This document shows, one piece after another, positions 8,870-39,000 of a stretch of 64,000 bases of DNA. The stretch is from Lutjanus erythropterus (Eukaryota; Chordata; Actinopteri; Lutjaniformes; Lutjanidae), in assembly GCA_020091685.1 (NCBI GenBank), contig CM034599.1, forward strand, positions 19,982,006 to 20,046,005, given 5' to 3'. Within the stretch, counting starts at the first letter, position 1. Each line of letters starts with the position of its first letter. The notes beneath the pieces are model-generated. The model made no database searches. It had not been told where the DNA came from and worked only from the letters and a program-made list of their open reading frames with translations. A program made the position numbers and the translations under genes.

Positions 8870-9765
8870 TCCAACGATAAACAGGCCATCTGGCAACAGA
8901 TGATAGCATCACATGACTGGGTATTAAAGGGGCATCACCTTAAGGTTCAGTCATTCGCAAGAAAAGATGAGCTGAGTTTCACCACTTCCTGAAAAACTGC
9001 ACATGCAAATAGTCCAACAGTTTAAGAACAAAGTTTCTCAACACACAATTTCTATTAATTTAGGGATTTCACCATCTACAATCCATAATATCATCAAAAG
9101 TTTCAGTTTCAAACCCACATAACTGTTATACAGTTATGTTATACAGTTATGTGGGTTTTTAATGCAGTCTAGTGGACTGCATGGGCTTTGAATTCTTTGG
9201 AAAACCGTCAGTAAACACAGTTTGTTACTGCATCTACAAATGCAAGTTATATTCAACTATGCAAAGTGAAAGCCAAATATCAGCATCCAGAAATGCTGTA
9301 GACTTCTCTGGGGCCCGAGCTCATCTGAGATGGACTGACGCAAAGTGGCCTGATGAGCTGACATTTTAGATTGCTTTCTGAAATCATGGATGTTGTGTCC
9401 TCCAGACTGAAGAAGAGAAGGAACATCCAGATTGTTGTCAGCGCAAAGTTCACAAGCCAGAATCTGTGATGGTATGGCGGAGTGTTAATGCCCGTGGCAT
9501 CATGGGTAAATGTCACATCTGTGAAGGCCCCATTAATGCTGAAAGGCGCATACAGGTTTTTGAGTAACATACTCTGCCATTGAGATATCATCTTTTTCAG
9601 AGACACCCCTGCTTATTTCAGCAAGACAATGCCAAGACATATTCTGCACGTGATACAACAGCATGGCGTCGTAGTAACAGAACTTGGTTACCTGACTGTC
9701 CTGCATGCAGTCCAGACTTGCCTCCCACTGAAAATGTGTGGTGCATAATGTATTTGGGAACATGT
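8870..9765 (+). pseudogene. Tc1-like transposase pseudogene
   Basis: Fragments of a Tc1/mariner transposase can be read on the plus strand in changing frames: a C-terminal block with GARAHLRWTDAKW (from about 9308), a 'sVMVWrsv'-like block near 9465, 'FQQDNAKTYSARDTTAW' (near 9620) and 'CPACSPDLPPTENVW' (near 9700), the last two covering the DDE catalytic region. Stops and frameshifts separate the blocks, and the middle is missing or replaced at 9111-9158. It cannot encode an active enzyme. Confidence 0.85.
9111..9158. repeat. Perfect 16-bp hairpin inside the transposon
   Basis: AAACCCACATAACTGT at 9111-9126 is the exact reverse complement of 9143-9158, with a 16-base loop. The loop and right arm also repeat 'TTATACAGTTATG' directly. 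It lies where the N-terminal third of the transposase should continue, so it probably arose by template switching or a small insertion during decay. Confidence 0.85.
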
Positions 9766-9895
9766 TGCAGGCATCAAATTTAGAATGAGTATATATTTAC
9801 AAAAACAACGTTTATAAATTTGAATGTAAAATATCTTATCTTCACTTTACGTTCAACTGAACATAGGTTGAAAAGTTTGACACATTTTACAGGTT

Positions 9896-13791: not shown

Positions 13792-15334
<1,543 letters not shown>

Positions 15335-17744: not shown

Positions 17745-17931
17745 TTGCCATTCATAACGGAAGTAGTCACGTTTGTAATCATGGCGTCCTCCATTGCACC
17801 GAGAGGCAACGTGATAACTCCTTAAAATGAGAAACTTTTGCTTCACTGGGACAACCAATATTAGTATCATCTAATTTCAACACATCATACTTAAAAAATA
17901 AGTCTGCACTCCTGGACGTTTCCGTTCAAAG
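17745..17931 (+). promoter_or_regulatory. utp15: utp15 promoter and likely non-coding first exon
   Basis: A good 5' splice site follows 'cgtttccgttcaaag' at 17931, and the ATG is in the next exon at 19156. Just upstream are CGGAAGTAG (ETS-like, about 17758) and ATCATGGCG (YY1-like, about 17778). The latter ATG opens a 14-codon frame ending in TAA, so it would be a short upstream frame if transcribed. The transcription start itself is not defined by sequence. Confidence 0.45.
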
Positions 17932-18466
17932 GTGAGAATTACCTGAATGTAGTTTAGTAGTTAGTAAATGCTAGCCGGCTAAGCGCAGTGTGCTAACTAA
18001 CTTCAGCTGTAAGTACTGAACACGTTGTCTCAGGTATCTGATTAATAAGCGGCTTTTGTTTTGTAACACGCAACATCATGCGTAATTTTAGTTATCAAAA
18101 GGTTGACTTTAGACATATTTTAAACCTGAGGTTAGGTTTCTACGCTCAGACAAAAGACATCGACGGTCTCGAAATAGTGAACTCATTAGCTTAGCCTTCA
18201 CGAATTGAAGTTTGGTTGGTTGTGATGCTTCTTGGTTAAACATGTGAGTGTGAACTTGTCTCTATATCTTTAAGTTGTTGGACTTCATACATACCTTCTC
18301 TTCTTTGTCGTTTGTGTTCTTTTGGATCAAGAAAATATTGTCTAAGCTTGTTAACCCCTCACCATCCAGTTTAATCCACGTTCAATTTCCACCAAATTGC
18401 TTTAAGTTCGCAAACTCTTCATATTCTCCATTTCGAGCAGTATGGAGTCCTTGTGTAGTAAAGGAG

Positions 18467-18537
18467 CTGTTGAATGATGATTTCTTGAGTGATCCATCGA
18501 CTGAATTTCATGATGATCTCAAGGATTCTGACAACCT
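18467..18537 (+). ncRNA. Box C/D snoRNA, SNORD71-like, copy 1 (utp15 intron 1)
   Basis: All four boxes are present: C ATGATGA (18474-18480), D' CTGA (18501-18504), C' ATGATGA (18510-18516) and D CTGA (18528-18531). GTTG before C pairs with CAAC after D as the terminal stem. The guide before D' (TTGAGTGATCCATCGA) pairs with the 5' part of 5.8S rRNA (GCGGUGGAUCACUCGG) over 15 positions, counting G-U pairs. The fifth base before D' faces U14 in human numbering. Um14 of 5.8S is the known target of SNORD71, so this is the likely identity. It lies in the sense orientation of utp15, so intronic processing is expected. Confidence 0.85.
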
Positions 18538-18829
18538 GAAGCTATAACATGTTTACACTGCGTGTAACTACCAACACACTCTGAGACTTTGTGTTTTAAA
18601 GGCTGCACTAATCAAGCAAATCAAAGCAGTACAGATGAATTGTGCATGATTTTACACAAATTCCCCTTATATTTGGAAACTTTGTAAAGCTGTGGATCCC
18701 TACTAAAATGTAAAATACATTTCTGCGAGTTGAACATTTTTAGGGTGCACAACATCAGTTTGTACATACCAGCAAGTGAGTGGGGTTTAACTAGCCCAGG
18801 TGTCATGTATCTTGCTATATGTTAATTAG

Positions 18830-19085
18830 AGCAGCAATGATTAGTTGATTGACAGAAAATTAGTTATCAGCAATTATAATAGATTAATGGTTTTAGTAGT
18901 TTTTCTAAAATGTCAGACACTGGCTGGTTCCAACATCTTAAATGTGAAGATTATTTGCTTTTCCTTGTCATTTGTGACAGTAGATGAAGAGTCTTTGGGT
19001 TTTGGACTGTTGGTTTGACAACAGAAGCAGTTAGGAGACAATTTAAATTGATTTGAATTGATAATCAAAATAATTGTACAATGAA
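18830..19085. repeat. Interspersed repeat (ATTAGTTGATT family)
   Basis: Contains 'gcagcaatgattagttgatt', 'gacactggctggttccaac' and 'tttgggttttggactgttgg', phrases of a common percomorph MITE-like family. Other members in this window are at 23266-23440 and 53608-53893. Confidence 0.65.
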
Positions 19086-19155
19086 GTCCTGATGTTAGTG
19101 TCCATGTTTTTCTATTTTCTGCATCTTACCAGAGTATTTTGTGATCAGCACAGAA

Positions 19156-22100
19156 ATGGCTTCGTTTAAACCAACGAAAATCCAAGTTTATCCTAAACTT
19201 GGAGAGAAAGTTACTCAAGACACGCTTTATTGGAAAAACTACAAGGTGAGTCTCTTTTACTATTCTCTGTCTTGGTATTGCTGTGGGCAAGAAAAGTGCA
19301 TCCTGAATTTTGTTTCTTAATCTTAACAATGCATCTTTGCTTCTCTCCTCACAGGCTCCAGTCCAGATAAAAGAATTTGGAGCAATCACAAACATAGACT
19401 TCTCCCCAGTGGCTCCACATAACTTTGCCGTGACTGCATTCACAAGAGTATGTTGGTTCTCTTGTATAAATCTACCTTAGTTTTTTTTTTCTTCCTTTTT
19501 TCACAAATTAGTCATTAGTCAGCGTTCACGTCATTAAATAATCAGTGTGCCAGTGAGTCCTCTGAATAATTGGGTATTAAGTATGCAACGATTGTTGGAG
19601 ATTTCTTATCCTTCTAATCCTGATTTCTCTACAGGTCCACATTTATGGGCCATTCTCCCAGGAGCCTGTGAAGACATTTACACGGTTTAAGGACACTGCA
19701 TACAGCGGGAGGTTCAGGTCAGATGGTCAGCTGCTCGTGGCGGGATGCGAAGACTCTGTCGTCCGGCTGTTTGATGTCAGTGGGAAGGTGGCACTGAGGA
19801 TGTTCAAAGGGCACGCGAAGTAAGTATCCCATGTGTCACAGTATGATGTCCTTTGATTTTTATGGCTTAGACTATAGCATGCAAGTGGAGACGCTGTGTA
19901 TGTATGCTATATTTACATATAGCAATGAAGTGTGACATTTTTAGTAAGTATAGCCTGTAGTTTTAAACAGCCTAGCTCCTACAGCATAATACAGTTTTAG
20001 TTTCCATGTCTTCAATCAAATACTTAAACCAATCTCTGACAGTTTGAGAAGTCTACATACTGCATAGGTCTGTGTTGGCATACACAATATTGTTTTCATG
20101 ATGGGATATGTAGTAAAGTAATTGTTGAATGATGATATCTTGAGTGATCCATCGACTGAATTTCATGATGATCCCAAGAATTCTGACAACCTCTAAAGTG
20201 TTTTGTTGAATAATAGGTGTCTGGTTGTGAAAGTGAACTCATGTAAATTTTGCCTCTGATTTTATTTCTGCTCAGGGCGGTCCACGTAACAGACTTCACC
20301 TCAGACCGTTACCAGATCCTCACGGGGTCGGATGACTACACCTGTCGACTCTGGGACATCCCGAACGCTACAGAGCTTAACACCTACCAAGAACACACAG
20401 ATTACATTCGCTGTGGCGTCACGAGCAAACTCAACAGAGATCTCTTCATCACAGGTGAGATGGAAGCTACATTGTTTTTAAATGGTGTGAGAAAAAGTTG
20501 AAGGCAAAGCAGGAAATAAGTATTTTTGTCTTTTAGCATCTGTGTTTGGTGCCTCCATCCATTTCGTAGCCAGTAGACTTTTTGAATAGAACCACTGTAT
20601 GACACATTGTATGTCATCTGTTGCATTAAGCATTAAGCTGGCTTTTAGGTTAAACCAGCTTAATGAGAACGGCCAAATTCTACCAACATTGGTCTTTTGA
20701 CCAGTCTATTTCCCATCAGGTTTATAGTGTATTAGCATCATATTTTCTGCACTATATGCTGCAGTATTTCTACTTTTTCCTAAAGCAATTTATGCTAATA
20801 AAGAAATGTATACAAAAAGTAACATAAAAAGCAACACGTCTTATTTAAAACACAACATATCCCTTGAATAATTGAATTGAATTAGTATGCCAAGCCATCA
20901 CGCTCCCAAAGCTGCTCTTGCATTGTTACAATGCCAACACAAGAATTTTTGTGTGACAAACAACTGATGTTTTTCCTCCTAGGATCTTATGACCACACAC
21001 TGAAACTGTTTGATGCCAGAGTGGATAAGAGTGTGATGACCATGGACCACGGCCAGCCAGTCGAGAGTCTGCTTCTCTATCCCTCTGACGGACTCCTCGT
21101 CTCTGCAGGTAGACGTCACAATGATCATCATGTTCAATTAGCTCATCTAGAAAATGTGCAAAGTTGTCAGACACACACAAATTTCTGCTAACCATGTTTG
21201 ATGACTTCAGTTAATTGGAGTACCTTGTTCAGGTTGAAAATGGTTGTTGTGCAGGATGTAAATAAAAACTAGGAATTGTTCAAAATCAAGGAACAACATT
21301 TAAGTCCATCGTATGCTTGGTTGTGACTTCAGTCAGGACAAAACTAAACTAAAATTGTTTTCCTACACCACTAACCTTCCTGCAAATGACTGCGCTCACA
21401 CAGATACCACATTTGCTTATTTTTATCCAGGGGCTTAAAAAAAAATCTCTTTTTCTTTAGGTGGGCGCTATGTCAAAGTGTGGGATCTGCTAAAAGGAGG
21501 GCAGCCTCTGGTGTCACTGAAAAACCATCACAAAACTGTCACCTGTTTGTGTCTCAGCAGCAACGGACAGAGACTTCTGTCAGCCTCTCTGGACAGGTAA
21601 TGAGACGGGTGTATGCGCAGAATTCATGCCTGACAAAACTGACAAGGAGAAAACATCCTAAACCTTATCTAACACAGAGCCTCTGTTTGTCTTTCAGGCA
21701 TGTAAAGGTGTACAACACATCCAACTATAAAGTGGTCCACAACTTTGACTACGCTGCCTCCATCCTCAGTCTGGCTTTGGCTGTAAGAAAATATAATGAA
21801 CTCTTCATCATGTTTTATTGTTAGTTTTTTTTTTTTTGAAGGTGAATTAAGTGTAGAAAAGTGCTGACTATGGCCACGGGGGGAAAAAACTCAATACAAA
21901 GAGAAGAAAATGAACTTTCATCTGAGCTGCACCCTCAGAGGGAGCTGTGGTTTGGGAGACCAGCTCTGAGACTGCAAAGTGATAGATTCAGTCTCTGCAG
22001 CAGCCAACAGAAATATCTAGTATCGCCAAAGATTTCAATTGAAATGATGGGATATGAAAGGGTACATCCTCTCCTCTTAGTGTTGGCATGACGGTGTAGG

Positions 22101-23846
22101 GTTTCCAGAACACAGAGCGTGAACTGACTGGTGTTTTTTACTTTGTGGTGGTGATTGAAAAGCAAAAGTCAAAAGCTGTCTTTGATTTGCTAGAAGCATG
22201 CACACCTAAAAAGAAGTGATGACCCAGCTTTAGTTATGGTTTTTACAAGGGCTACCTAAACTTTTCAGCTTGAGACCCAGAAGAAAATTGTGGTGTCTCC
22301 CCAAGACCCAAACTTAGAAAAATACACTTCTCTTTATTCGCTCGCTATTAAAGTATTGTTACGCATTTTGTGACGTGACGAGATGTGTGACAAAAGAGAG
22401 CCTGAATTCTTGACACTAAAACTATGATTATGTCTTTCTCCTCAGCCGGATGATGAGTCTATTGTCGTTGGTATGACCAACTCTATTCTGAGTATCAAAC
22501 ACAGGAAAAGCCCTGAAGAGTCGAAGGAAATCTCTGGTCAGCAGAGGCGACGACCGTCATATCGTGTTTTTGTGAAGGGGAAGAATTACGTCCCTAAACA
22601 GGTATGTTTACATTTAATAACCTTCAGTAGCCGAGGTCAACAGAGTGATTATTCCATAAGAGATGCTTTTATTCAGTTCTGCAAAAGACAAGCTGTCTTG
22701 ACAATGACTGATGCCTTTATTTCTGCACACTGAGTTATTATTTAAAGCTTATGATCATTGTTAATTAATTTCTTGCTTCTCCATCTTTTTTTCCAGGATG
22801 ATTATCTTGTCAGTAAGCCAGTGAAACAGCATCTGGCCAAATACGACAAGCATCTCAAGAAATTTAATGTAACAAAGGCTTTGGATACAGCTCTTGAGGT
22901 ATTTATTACATTGGCCACAAGGTTTAAGAATCTTATCTTTTTCTTGATTTAAACTAAAATGTAAAATGTGTTACATATGCTGCTCTCCTGTTGCCACATC
23001 CCTCATGTACAAACAAACATTTCAAAACGGTGGAAAATTCACTTTTATTAATTTATATTACATTTTATTTATAGACATGGACAAGACACAGAAAGCCAGA
23101 GATCACAGTTGCTGTTATGAAGGAGCTGGATCGAAGAGGAACGTTGAAGAACGCTCTGGCAGGAAGAGATGAACGGGGACTGTCTCAGTTGCTCAACTTC
23201 CTCATCGGGTGAGACGCAGAAACTTCCCTTCTTAAGTGGTCTTTAGCGAGTGTAGACGTAATGTGTAGAGCTGCAATTAATCAGTTGTCAACTATTAAAG
23301 TATTGCCAACTATTTTATTAACAATTGGCTTGAGTAATTTTGGACTTTGGACAAAACAAGACATTAGAGGACAATGTCTTGGGTTTTGGGACAACTAATC
23401 GATTAATGGCCAATGAAAATAATCATTAGTTGCAGCTCTAATTGTGTATTAGCTTCTACATCAAATCGTCCATAAATATTTTGTGCATAACAATTTTGCC
23501 ACAATAATACTTGAACTTTTTCCGTTTTTTTTTTTTTCTCTCCAGGAACTTGGTTGACCCCAGGTTTGCTCCTGTCCTCGTCACGGCGGCTGACATGATC
23601 CTGGACGTCTATCGGTCAGTAATCGGCCAGTCAGCAGTCGTGGACCGACAGCTGCTGCGTCTGCAGGAGCTGCTGGAGAAAGAGATCGACTATCAGCAGG
23701 ACCTCCTGGAGGTGCTGGGCATGTTGGACACGATGTTTGCCTCCGCCCTGCCCAGGAAGGAGGTGCCATGCTGTGGCATAAGCGGGTCTAATGGACTGGC
23801 TCAGGGAGAAGCAAGTACCTCAAGAGCACAGCTGCAGGCCACCTGA
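19156..23846 (+). CDS. utp15: UTP15, small-subunit processome WD40 protein, complete
   Basis: UTP15 is part of the UtpA/t-UTP subcomplex of the nucleolar SSU processome, which couples rDNA transcription to 18S pre-rRNA processing with U3 snoRNA. Coding exons: 19156-19245, 19355-19447, 19635-19819, 20276-20454, 20983-21108, 21461-21596, 21698-21782, 22446-22601, 22797-22898, 23075-23208 and 23546-23846. The total is 1587 bases (528 aa plus stop), all in phase; human UTP15 is about 518 aa. The start is [20 protein letters not shown]. Residues about 40-330 carry WD40 repeats with visible strands such as [29 protein letters not shown] and SLDRHVKVYN. The C-terminal UTP15 domain includes [12 protein letters not shown] and LLNFLIGNLVDPRF. 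The tail after LDTMFASAL is less conserved and ends SRAQLQAT. Confidence 0.96.
20122..20192 (+). ncRNA. Box C/D snoRNA, SNORD71-like, copy 2 (utp15 intron after third coding exon)
   Basis: C ATGATGA (20129-20135), D' CTGA (20156-20159), C' ATGATGA (20165-20171) and D CTGA (20183-20186), with GTTG (20124-20127) pairing CAAC (20187-20190). From C box to closing stem it differs from the 18467-18537 copy at only three positions. The D' guide for 5.8S U14 is identical in both. Two of the three changes fall in the segment before box D, which suggests that segment is not the working guide. The upstream flank (TGTAGTAAAG) is also shared, so the pair arose by local duplication. Confidence 0.85.
23266..23440. 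mobile_element. MITE with TAGAGCTGCAA ends (utp15 intron 10)
   Basis: TAGAGCTGCAATTAAT at the left mirrors ATTAGTTGCAGCTCTA at the right, about 175 bp in all. It contains 'ggacaaaacaagacatt', a family-specific phrase. The ends suggest a hAT-type miniature element. Confidence 0.7.
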
Positions 23847-30000: not shown

Positions 30001-33000
30001 ATTTTGTACCTTCTTTCTTTGAACCTGTCTCCTCCACTCCTGCCTCTGTCAGTTGTTTGATATGTTTCCCAGAATAACCCACACAGTGTGTCCTGTGGCT
30101 CCATTGCTGTCTGGTCTATTGAGTCCACTGTAGGTGGACAAATTGATGTCTTCTACAATAGATTTCTTCTTCGGTGTTGGTGGAAAGCAGCTTTAAAAAG
30201 CTGGCTAGTGGCGCTGAAAAATATTATTTATTTGAGGGATTGAAATGAAAAGTAGGTGATTAGTCTTGATATTTAAATTGTGAAAGATCTGCCATCTAAC
30301 TCAGTTACAGTTGCATTAGAGATCTACAGACTGCAGCCCTTTATCTACAGTAAATATATTTACAGGCAGTAAGTATATTTGCAATGGTTTAAATCATTTT
30401 GTGTTATGTGAAAGGCGTCACTCATAGTTACAAACTCTTTGTGTTGTACCAAACATTTGTCAGTCAAACTGCATTTTCTGTTCAATACGAATATTCAATG
30501 ATTTGTTCCCTTTTCTTTAAGCTTAGCACCACACTAAACTCCTATATCAGCCTACATCTGTGATGTGAAAACATTAGATTTCCACACAGTCAGAGAAACT
30601 AAAAGTGCCTGTCCTCTTGCTCATAATCCAGGTATAAAAGCAGCTCAGCGCTGTTGATGCTGCAGCATGTCACCTGCCCTGCACGCTCTGCAGTGCGCTG
30701 TGGTGCATCACCTCCACTACGCGTCCGTGTCGCCTGTCTGCGCTTCCATCACAGTTAGCATCTGCAGTGTTGTTGCATTGCCTTGTGTACAATGACACAG
30801 CAGAAAACCCAGACCTGAAACTTGTTTACCAACCACTTGTTTCATCTTCTCTCTCCAGCGCATGCTGTCATGAGACTTTGTTCAATAAGTGCACCAGCTA
30901 ACAAAATCCTCTTATTTATAATTCCTCATTAAAAAACAAGTGCTCGACTTGAGGAATCTCAGTCGATTGAAGGGTCAGCGAATCTTCAGCTTTCAAGGGA
31001 CAGCCCTACTCAGTTCTGCTCTGCACTACAATGCTTTTTAGCCTCTTTCGTTTAATAGTTGTGGTTTCACGGCCTGCAGTTTTACCATTTGGGTTGAGTC
31101 TCACAGTTCTCACCAGCCCAGTGTTTTCAAAGAAAAAAAAACTAACAATGACCCCATGGTACGCAATCTGCCCTCCACAGGAAATATCAAAATTATGTCA
31201 GTTGTTGTGTTCTTTTTCTAAAAAAAATCTCATCATTTTATTGCTGGTATAAAAACTCAGGTACTGTATTGGCTCCAGTGTTAAGCAATAACAAACGATA
31301 CCGAGACCGAGAGAAGTCAGTGACCTAGAATTTGAACAGCTCAACCATGGCTTCTTAAGTGAGGGTTTTTAAACTGAGACTGATACTTTTCTCACCTGCA
31401 TGTGTTTTAAAGGCTACCAATCAGTGTATATATTATCAGTGTAAGTGTTCTGACCTATTTCACCTTCTTCTGCCTCAGATCAGAAGTCTAAAGTGTTCTG
31501 GCCTGTTGGGATCAGGGCAGGTCTTTGCAGTAGACACTAAGACATTCCAGCTTTTATTGAGGGGGGATGTTTTATTGTACCCTCGAGAGGAATGCTGTCA
31601 AGGGATTTGGTGTACTTTACAGAAATGTAGAGCACTGCATCAGAATAGAGTCTTACCCTAAAATGAGCCCGTGTCTTTAGGAATAGAAATATTTGTTCCT
31701 CTTTATTTTCCCTCTCAACCTCTCTCACCTCTCTTTATCTTTATCTCAGGGCCAGGCGAAGGTATTTGCGTTGCTGGAGGGTTTAGACTCGGTGCCAGAG
31801 GATGCAGAGGTCTACGTTGTTTTGGAAGGATCCACGCTGGTCCATGTCACCAGGGCTCAGAGTGATGTCATGCTCTGCTTTATAGTGCCTGGTACGAGCG
31901 TGTATATGTCTGTCTGTGTACTGCATTACTGTGTTATTGTATGTATGATATCATGTCTTTTTGTGCTGTGTTTTACATCAGATTATTTAGAAAACCATGT
32001 TCTGACATAAAACTACTCGTCCTGACAATGCCAGGTTTTCCACTCCTGTCTGTGATATACTCAGGAACAGTATATCACTATTTGAATCTACACACACGCA
32101 CACACACACACTCAGGCATGTACATATACACACGCACAGTCTGTGGCTAGTGGTCTGGAAAGACACAGAATCTTATCAGCTTCCTCTCAGGAGGGAAACG
32201 GCTCCATAAACAATATGTCAGCATTACTGAGCCTCTGTGTAGGATGACACAGACAGCAGGCAGACAGTGCTTGTGTGCTCTCTACAATAGCTGGACTATT
32301 AAAACCAGATCTCCTTCTCCATCAGAAATAGAAAAAATGCTTTTATTAGCATATGAAAAGGAAATCTGAGAACACTGTCAGCCACACTCAGACATTTCCT
32401 CAGGTACTTTGGCTCTGGGCTGAAATGTAGGCCAATTCAGCTTTTTTAAGGACCATACTGATGGCTTTGTATTTTTAGGTTGTTACATATAAAAATGTGT
32501 ATAATTGTAACTATTTTCAGGTAATCAATCATTGTCAGCATTTTGTCTGTTGTATTTTTGTTGTATGAGAAGGCAGTTGAAGGCATCATAGAATCATCAA
32601 AGAATTAGGATCTAAATTAAACAAAATAAAGGATGCAGTCTAATTAATACTGTATATAATAGCATTTTTCATAAAGAGATATAATGTGTCTGGAGTAAAG
32701 TCTTTTGCTGCATTGTGTCACTCTTTAGGACATAACCTGGCTGAGATGGTCTCTGTTCAAGCCTACCTGTGCTCTGAAACCACACCCCTCACCTGGGTAG
32801 GCGGAGCTTCACTGGAGTATGTCCAAGATGATGCTCAGGTAGGGGAGACACACAAATATGATCCTATACATGACAGGGTTGTGCATCCCTGTGGTAAAAT
32901 GGACCTATTTGTATTTGTACTGTTTGTATTAAACACTGTTATGATGATATTTCTGTGAAACAGATTAACTTAAACAGCGACACACACTTAGGAGCTTTGC

Positions 33001-36000: not shown

Positions 36001-39000
36001 AATGTTCAGAGGTTAAATTCTAAGATTATGGTGAATTTATGCAGCATTTTTAGAAATACAGCAGTACATGTCCAAGCCTACCGGTTGTTAGACTGTGGCT
36101 GATTTTTTGCAGGCCAGTTACCTGGATACAGATCACGTTGGACTGCACTGAGTGGCAGGCACAGAAATAAGAAACTGTCACCACTTTGTTGAAAAGCTTT
36201 TATTACCTTAAAGTGGGTCAGTGGAGCAGAGGGTTTCAGAGCTGTGCAAGAGAACAAATCAATCATTGACATTTAGGTTAATTATCATGGGGAGCTGGTT
36301 ATTGAAACAAGATTCTTGACATGCTAGTTTCCTCTTATTTTTCTCACATTCTGCCACTGGCTTAGTTTTTTCTCGTCTCACTGTTAATCTCACCTCCCTC
36401 TTCCATTCAGCAGCTGTCTCAGATCCCACTGCGTACTTTTATCTCTGCAGAGTTCGATCTTTTATCCTATTATATTTCTTCCCTTGTCTCCAGAGCACAG
36501 TCTCAGGGAGTCTCCCCTCCACCTGGCCGTGCGATGGGGTCTGTATCAGCTGGCAGAGCTGCTGCTCTGTCAGCCCGGCGGTTTGATGGCTGTCAGTCTG
36601 CCAAACGAAGAGGGAGTCACACCGCTGCAGCTGGCACAGAAAGCAGGCAACACTGAGCTCCTGGAGCTGCTCACACAGTAAGATTATCAGCTCCAGCAGG
36701 GTGCTTCAGGGAGAGACACTGACAAATGAATCACTGTTTTCCTGTAACATTATGCACTTGGTGCAGATCATTCCCACACACACAGCAAGGGAAAGCTTCT
36801 TTAAATGTAGAAACAACCCAGCTTTACCCCACACACCCACCCATTCATCCATCTATCCATTAGCTGTAACCAGCTATCCTTTTTAGAGAGTCACAGGGGG
36901 CTGAAGCCAATCCCGGCTGACATTGAGTGAGCGGCGGTATCCTCCCTAGACAGGTCACCTGTCAATCAGTAGGGCTGATACATAAAGATAGACAATCATT
37001 TATGCTCACATTAACACCTACAGGCAACTTTATCATCAATTAACTTCTATAAAAATAACTTTGTAATATATTTGCTGAAGCTGTCATTAATTCTTGATTA
37101 TGGACACCTTGAAGGGAATTATCCCACTTACACCATGGTCACCAGCCTAAGAAAAAAAATAAGACCATTAATTTAGATTTTCATGCACTGTGCGATCAAA
37201 ATCTAAAGTTTTTCACATGCCATAACTTTGTTTCCCTGATAGTACCTGAGGGTTTGACTAATAGTTGGAACAATCATTTCCATCTCATAAGGTTCTTATA
37301 CAATGTAAACACTGTTCACTACTCCAGTAACTAGGACGAACCTTAGATATGACTATGACTAGATGATATTTCTGGTCTTGAACACTTTGGCTCAGCTATG
37401 AACCAGAATGCCTTACATTAGCAAGATTCAAAGTCAATAATGTTGTGTACGATTGACAAACAGCAAATATAACTTACTAGCTATCGGTGCTCCCCTGTCA
37501 TCAGCAGCCAGAGCTAAAACAAAGTGTGGAGGCAGGTCTGGCTATGCAGGCATAGCTGCAGCCTGAAGCTGCAAGTTTAATGATGAATGGGACGTGGTGG
37601 ATAGACAAAGTCAGATGGGCAGTGTGGGAGAAGATATTTTATTTCCTTCTATTTGATTTTTATTTTGTATGGTTCTGTTCAGTGTGTCTGCTGAAAGTAA
37701 AACTTTTACATTTATTAGCATACTTCTGTAAATGAATCTTTTTTTGTCTTGTATTGTGAGGAGAGCCAAGTTGTCCCATGACATCACACCGTACCTAGGA
37801 GGAGAGGCAGAGGAGGAAAAGGAGAGAGAGAAAGCGTGACAGTAAATGACAGCAATACGCAGTAAAGATTCTCACACTGAACACAAATTAAAGGAGTGTA
37901 CATATATCAGGGAAATGACAAAAATAAATATATAAATATTGGGTTGTAAGATGCTCTGATTGGTTGTATTCATTCAGGAGCGGTGGATTCTTGCAAATGC
38001 CATTTTTAGCATGTGGTGGAGCCAGAGGAACCGGATTTTTTCACAAATAACCTTATATGTTGTGTATTATTGTCAGGATGTAGTGACAGTTTCAGCAAAT
38101 ATGACAAAACACTATTTCTTTTATAGAATTCACCAACTGTTGCTTTGAAGGAATAGTTCGTCCAAAATTGAAAATTCAGTCATTATCTACTAATACCTAC
38201 TAAACTACTACTAAACCCGAATTTCAGTCGGCATGAGGGTGAGTAGATAGAGAGTGAATTTTCATTTTTGGGTGAATGATCCCTTTAACCTGCATGTCAT
38301 AGGACTATGGGAGAAAACCCACACAGGCACAGGGGGAAACATGCAAGCTCCATACAGAAAGGCCCAGAACCTTGTTGCTGTGAGGCGACGGTGCTAACGA
38401 CTGCTATTACCCCAGATAATTTACATTCTTTCAATTTCTAAAATACTGTAAATGTACTGGTTGAAGTACATTTTATGAACAGATAAAATGCTAAACACCT
38501 GTTGTCAAACTCAGGAATGTTTTGTGCTCAATCTGGACCCATAAATCTTTACAACTTTATAGGCTTGTTTACTTGGCCTGAAAAACTAGAAGAGTGAGTG
38601 AGTGCTTTTAGATATTTGTTTACATAAGCTAAGGGCTTTGGAAGTATTTTTAGCCACATTTTTAATGATAAAAACAGTATTTTGTAAGACTATCAACCTT
38701 AATAATATTTTTATTTTTTTGTGATTAACCTGACACACCTGTTGTGCTGCAGCCCACCCAACCCTCTGGCCACGCCTCCAGCTGGTCTGTCCCAGGTCTG
38801 GGCAGACCGGTCCCGCTTGTTGAGGTTCTGTCATGACACGGGGAACCTGACTTTGACCGTCCGACAAAACCTGAGGTGGAGCTCAGAGGAGAGCCGGCAT
38901 GCTGACATCCTACTTCTCAGAGAGCGGCTCAGAGACGAGGACTTCCTCAGAGAGGTTAGTCTGGGTTATCAGTCCTGGCAAACCTGAGATGTCTGTCAGA

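Follow-up and report, generated by a model that had tools for sequence, protein, structure and literature searches.

SNORD71 (HBII-239; Rfam RF00576) has been tabulated as the guide for U14 of 5.8S rRNA, and its human host gene is AP1G1 (PMC6466398). The target nucleotide is a U that follows G13 and is 2'-O-methylated in mammals (PMC8467515). Three 2'-O-methylated sites have been reported for zebrafish 5.8S rRNA (reviewed in PMC8393311). In chicken, the 5.8S-U14 guide is listed as GGgCD1, with a 13-nt antisense element at D' (5') and a location in AP1G1 intron 11 (PMC2653536, Table 1). AP1G1 had been given as the human SNORD71 host in the initial annotation of the locus studied here, and the entries for human (PMC6466398) and chicken (PMC2653536) agree with this. 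Rfam labels SNORD71 as an HACA-box RNA, although both its consensus and the target listed for it fit a C/D guide.

Both host gene changes and multi-copy snoRNA genes have been described in vertebrates, and SNORD87, for which Xenopus and zebrafish have four genes apiece, is an example of the latter (PMC3349704). In chicken, nearly all paralogues are attributed to duplication within one host gene (PMC2653536), and snoRNA mobility has been presented as ongoing in eukaryotes, among broadly expressed hosts, with selection keeping expression and not location (PMC3511168). We analyzed a 64,000-nt window (the whole stretch of Lutjanus erythropterus DNA under study) with two box C/D elements in the gene utp15. 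Like chicken GGgCD1, they have 5.8S U14 as predicted target and an antisense element at D', but GGgCD1 is known as one isoform in AP1G1 intron 11 (PMC2653536). They resemble the multi-copy intronic C/D genes of non-placental vertebrates in that several copies of one guide occur per genome (PMC3349704), and differ from examples such as SNORD87 in both the snoRNA and the host.

The two elements span 18467-18537 (copy 1) and 20122-20192 (copy 2), both on the plus strand. Box C of copy 1 lies at 18474-18480, D' at 18501-18504, C' at 18510-18516, and D at 18528-18531; the same boxes of copy 2 lie at 20129-20135, 20156-20159, 20165-20171, and 20183-20186, with identical box-to-box spacing. On inspection, C and C' were exactly ATGATGA and D' and D exactly CTGA in both copies, and each thus has a C box (RUGAUGA) and a D box (CUGA) near its two ends, as in C/D guide snoRNAs. 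A 4-bp closing stem (GTTG/CAAC) brings C and D together in both, as the terminal stem of such RNAs does. All of the coordinates, boxes, and closing stems of the initial annotation were reproduced, and the box C/D identity it gave to both elements stands on the exact boxes, the stem, and the guide geometry. At the level of sequence, we consider the two confirmed as real box C/D snoRNA-like elements, ordinary in kind.

The D' guides occupy 18485-18499 in copy 1 and 20140-20154 in copy 2, on the plus strand. Paired with an assumed 5.8S rRNA sequence, each forms the same unbroken duplex of 15 contiguous pairs (12 Watson-Crick and three G-U), in which bases 2 to 16 upstream of D' face 5.8S positions 11-25 and base 5 (18496 in copy 1, 20151 in copy 2) lies opposite U14. 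With this assumed sequence, both copies have the arrangement of guide snoRNAs, an antisense element at D' whose fifth base faces the target, and the earlier claim of two identical guides whose fifth base before D' faces U14 was borne out. The Rfam SNORD71 consensus, which is independent of the assumed 5.8S, has the same 13-letter core, GAGUGAUCCAUCg, immediately 5' of D'. This core carries U opposite G13 of the assumed 5.8S, where a perfect guide would carry C. A fetched eukaryotic 5.8S rRNA has matching target letters, but because the search pattern contained them, this is no conservation test and shows only that the target letters lie near the 5.8S start. The 5.8S pattern had no matches in viral contigs. 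One 5.8S rRNA was found on the minus strand (1367-1520) of a bacterial MAG contig (locus L001; Phycisphaerales, JAKVBU010000049.1), an evident eukaryotic contamination.

A second guide before box D was also sought. Against 5.8S rRNA up to its last 16 bases, neither D box was among the 12 sites that scored at least 9, and against the partial rDNA of L001 the best score was 8. Within the 5.8S and partial rDNA sequences compared, a likely target thus emerged for the D' guide only.

A scan of both strands for full-box elements returned two candidates in the window, which were these copies only, versus a total of one in 200 dinucleotide shuffles; the criteria (exact C, D', C', and D with a stem of at least four pairs) were fixed after the elements had been seen. 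The guide score alone, when every CTGA and almost every 5.8S site was admitted, was equalled in 3/100 shuffled windows, and it is on this figure that a chance resemblance in intronic DNA would have to build. We nevertheless count the pairing as evidence because it lies at D' of two full-box elements and concerns one known methylation site. Boxes, stem, and guide occur together, and do so twice, in a unit that is 78/84 identical between two introns with otherwise short and weak matches, and chance is accordingly a very unlikely explanation. Single-strand folding was no better than that of shuffled sequence in any of the four stretches folded; C/D snoRNAs often behave in this way, but the result lends the reading no support. 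The element was also sought by pattern scans, with no match in prokaryote genome contigs or in viral contigs, which is uninformative for fish.

Rfam returned no matches at gathering thresholds across the whole window. Loose thresholds gave 28 matches for the stretch with copy 1 and 26 for the one with copy 2, all below their own cut-offs; CD-box labels accounted for 25/28 and 23/26, respectively, plus SNORD71 itself. The SNORD71 model, which the initial annotation had proposed for identifying the pair, scored 17.1 bits on copy 1 (E 0.36, ninth of 28 by bits) and 21.8 bits on copy 2 (E 0.018, fourth of 26 by bits), both under its gathering cut-off of 34 bits. Because that score was not reached, we have not filed the copies under RF00576. 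SNORD66 had the best E-value on copy 1 (E 0.0013, 23.9 of 32 bits), and on copy 2 the highest bit score was that of snoZ17 (23.4 of 44). We set aside SNORD66, snoZ17, SNORD96, SNORD100, and others because what their alignments with the copies have in common is mostly boxes and spacing.

The copies resemble SNORD71 in the predicted target nucleotide, the position of the guide at D', and the 13-letter core including the U opposite G13. Judged by their letters, both carry the 5.8S-U14 guide at D' that is characteristic of SNORD71. They differ in length (71 nt, whereas the SNORD71 model has 86 positions), in their exact D' and C' boxes, which by eye are degenerate in the Rfam consensus, and in being two copies within utp15 rather than in AP1G1 as in chicken and human. 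An AP1G1 intron is not a strict requirement for SNORD71, and given the snoRNA moves already described, the difference in host would not be much of a surprise. Because the SNORD71 model scores are below the cut-off, we call the copies putative functional counterparts of SNORD71 and regard descent from it as likely but unproven.

A fish origin independent of SNORD71, with a different C/D snoRNA having gained the U14 guide instead of SNORD71 having changed host, would agree with the sub-threshold SNORD71 scores and with the several other C/D families that score higher on both copies. Since the guide core is largely set by the target, its shared letters say little on descent. The common U opposite G13, in contrast, is not dictated by the target, the guide is at D' in both, and the spacing from box C to the guide is, by eye, nearly equal to that of the SNORD71 consensus. 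Outside the conserved elements, moreover, vertebrates are described as having little sequence conservation (PMC3349704), which also speaks against a separate origin. We consider such an origin unlikely, and descent from SNORD71 the better reading of the two.

The host gene is utp15, whose multi-exon coding region spans 19156-23846 on the plus strand; the first five coding exons were placed by script and the later exon ends are approximate. The protein joined from these exons matched the UTP15 homolog chain 7mq8_LJ (E 1.2e-232), which we take to be a human processome entry, and carries the UTP15_C domain (PF09384). A public protein search gave 509 matches at E 0.001 among 7996 candidates scored. 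Among the best 120 of these 509, the top match was at 95%. Of those listed with a species name, the best (91%) came from the wrasse Halichoeres trimaculatus, followed by UTP15 proteins from other fish, which we take to be percomorphs. Together, the 7mq8_LJ match, PF09384, and the fish UTP15 proteins uphold the earlier identification of utp15 as host.

Several other features surround utp15 in the window. BTF3-like exons with a NAC domain lie head-to-head with it at 14150-15260 on the minus strand, and their N-terminal motifs are presumably those of BTF3. One fish protein under the name BTF3 (P0098, Aldrovandia affinis) combines a NAC domain with UTP15 domains. It may be a fused gene model, which would agree with the same BTF3-utp15 adjacency in another fish. 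Downstream, the reading frames at 31359-32955 (plus strand) appear to resemble ARHGEF28, the neighbor of UTP15 in human; one fragment scanned from this region, with a partly mistyped query, had no Pfam match. A reading frame at 36388-36678 (plus strand) matched an ankyrin repeat (PF00023, 35.2 bits). Another at 9568-9780 (plus strand), which appears to resemble the end of a Tc1/mariner transposase, had no Pfam match at 0.001.

Both copies lie on the sense strand of the host. Copy 2 is firmly placed in a utp15 intron by the exon reading (intron 4, 19820-20275, plus strand), and its end is 83 nt upstream of the last intron base, close to where intronic C/D snoRNAs typically sit. Copy 1 falls in a probable intron 1 (17932-19132, plus strand), bounded by a donor-like GTGAGA at 17932 and, ahead of the ATG exon, an acceptor at 19132. 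The stretch preceding GTGAGA has a CpG ratio of ~0.7 to 1.0 and ACGGAAG and ATGGCG motifs (promoter-like motifs at 17757 and 17781). Copy 1 would be intronic, within the 5'UTR, provided that a non-coding first exon has its end near 17931. The end of copy 1 is 595 nt upstream of the first coding-exon acceptor.

These placements bear on whether both copies work. Copy 2 lies 83 nt from a firm intron end; for copy 1, the first firm acceptor is 595 nt away and the 5'UTR intron is itself only probable. There could therefore be a single working snoRNA gene, more likely copy 2, the other being a nearly or wholly silent duplicate. Copy 1, however, has lost none of its boxes and keeps both guide and stem. 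At 18601, 64 nt 3' of copy 1, a weak AG acceptor might belong to an alternative exon. When the 102-nt stretch with copy 1 is folded, some flanking bases are predicted to pair into an extended outer stem that might compensate, though this fold is no better than those of shuffles. We find a single working copy improbable on balance, and the best reading of the pair is that of two redundant guides for 2'-O-methylation of 5.8S U14.

The two copies differ at four of 71 positions (1, 16, 53, and 58), and not at three as had been reported initially. All four differences are outside the boxes, the D' guide, and the 4-bp stem, and two of them fall in the stretch before box D. The 13 nt upstream of copy 1 (18454-18466, plus strand) are identical at 11/13 positions to the corresponding flank of copy 2 (20109-20121), making a common unit of 84 bp that consists of the snoRNA and this flank. 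Beyond it, only short weak matches remain between the two introns. No further copies were found in the window by 13-mers with up to two mismatches or by blastn (next best E 0.53), and by eye there was no poly-A tail 3' of either copy as a sign of retroposition. The pair could have arisen either by copying of a short unit between introns or by a larger duplication that has decayed except at the constrained unit. We favor the former because 13 nt outside the snoRNA are shared, 11 of them identical.

We are thus quite confident in the overall explanation that both elements are intronic C/D guides from utp15 that direct 2'-O-methylation of 5.8S U14, and that the pair came about by an ~84-bp duplication. 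A short unit of about this size would have been copied from one utp15 intron into another. Both snoRNAs would be spliced out within utp15 introns, trimmed from the debranched introns, and bound by the usual C/D proteins (15.5K, NOP56, NOP58, and fibrillarin). Their identical D' guides would then direct methylation of U14, the task of SNORD71 in chicken and mammals. A ribosome-assembly gene as host fits a guide role, but does not by itself show any special coupling of host and guide output.

We found no description of a utp15-hosted snoRNA in the open-licence literature searched, and in the text available from PMC3176792 both mentions of a snoRNA refer to U3. These genes or their orthologues may already be listed in a catalogue from 2011 that covers 1352 C/D genes of vertebrates (PMC3349704). 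That Rfam cut-offs missed this C/D pair fits the argument made there that annotation misses many non-mammalian snoRNA genes (PMC3349704). Human cell pools without SNORD71 reportedly lack 5.8S Um14 and have altered ribosome function (PMC12288042, citing other work).

The pair leaves the accepted view of how such RNAs work unchanged. It is a clean candidate for a host gene change of a conserved guide, with AP1G1 as the host in chicken and human and utp15 in this fish. A more far-reaching possibility, which we consider unlikely, is that in percomorph (perhaps all teleost) fish the sole 5.8S Um14 guides reside in utp15 introns and the Um14 level tracks utp15 transcription and splicing. If true, utp15, a small-subunit processome gene whose product is an early pre-rRNA factor, would directly supply the methylation of a large-subunit rRNA.
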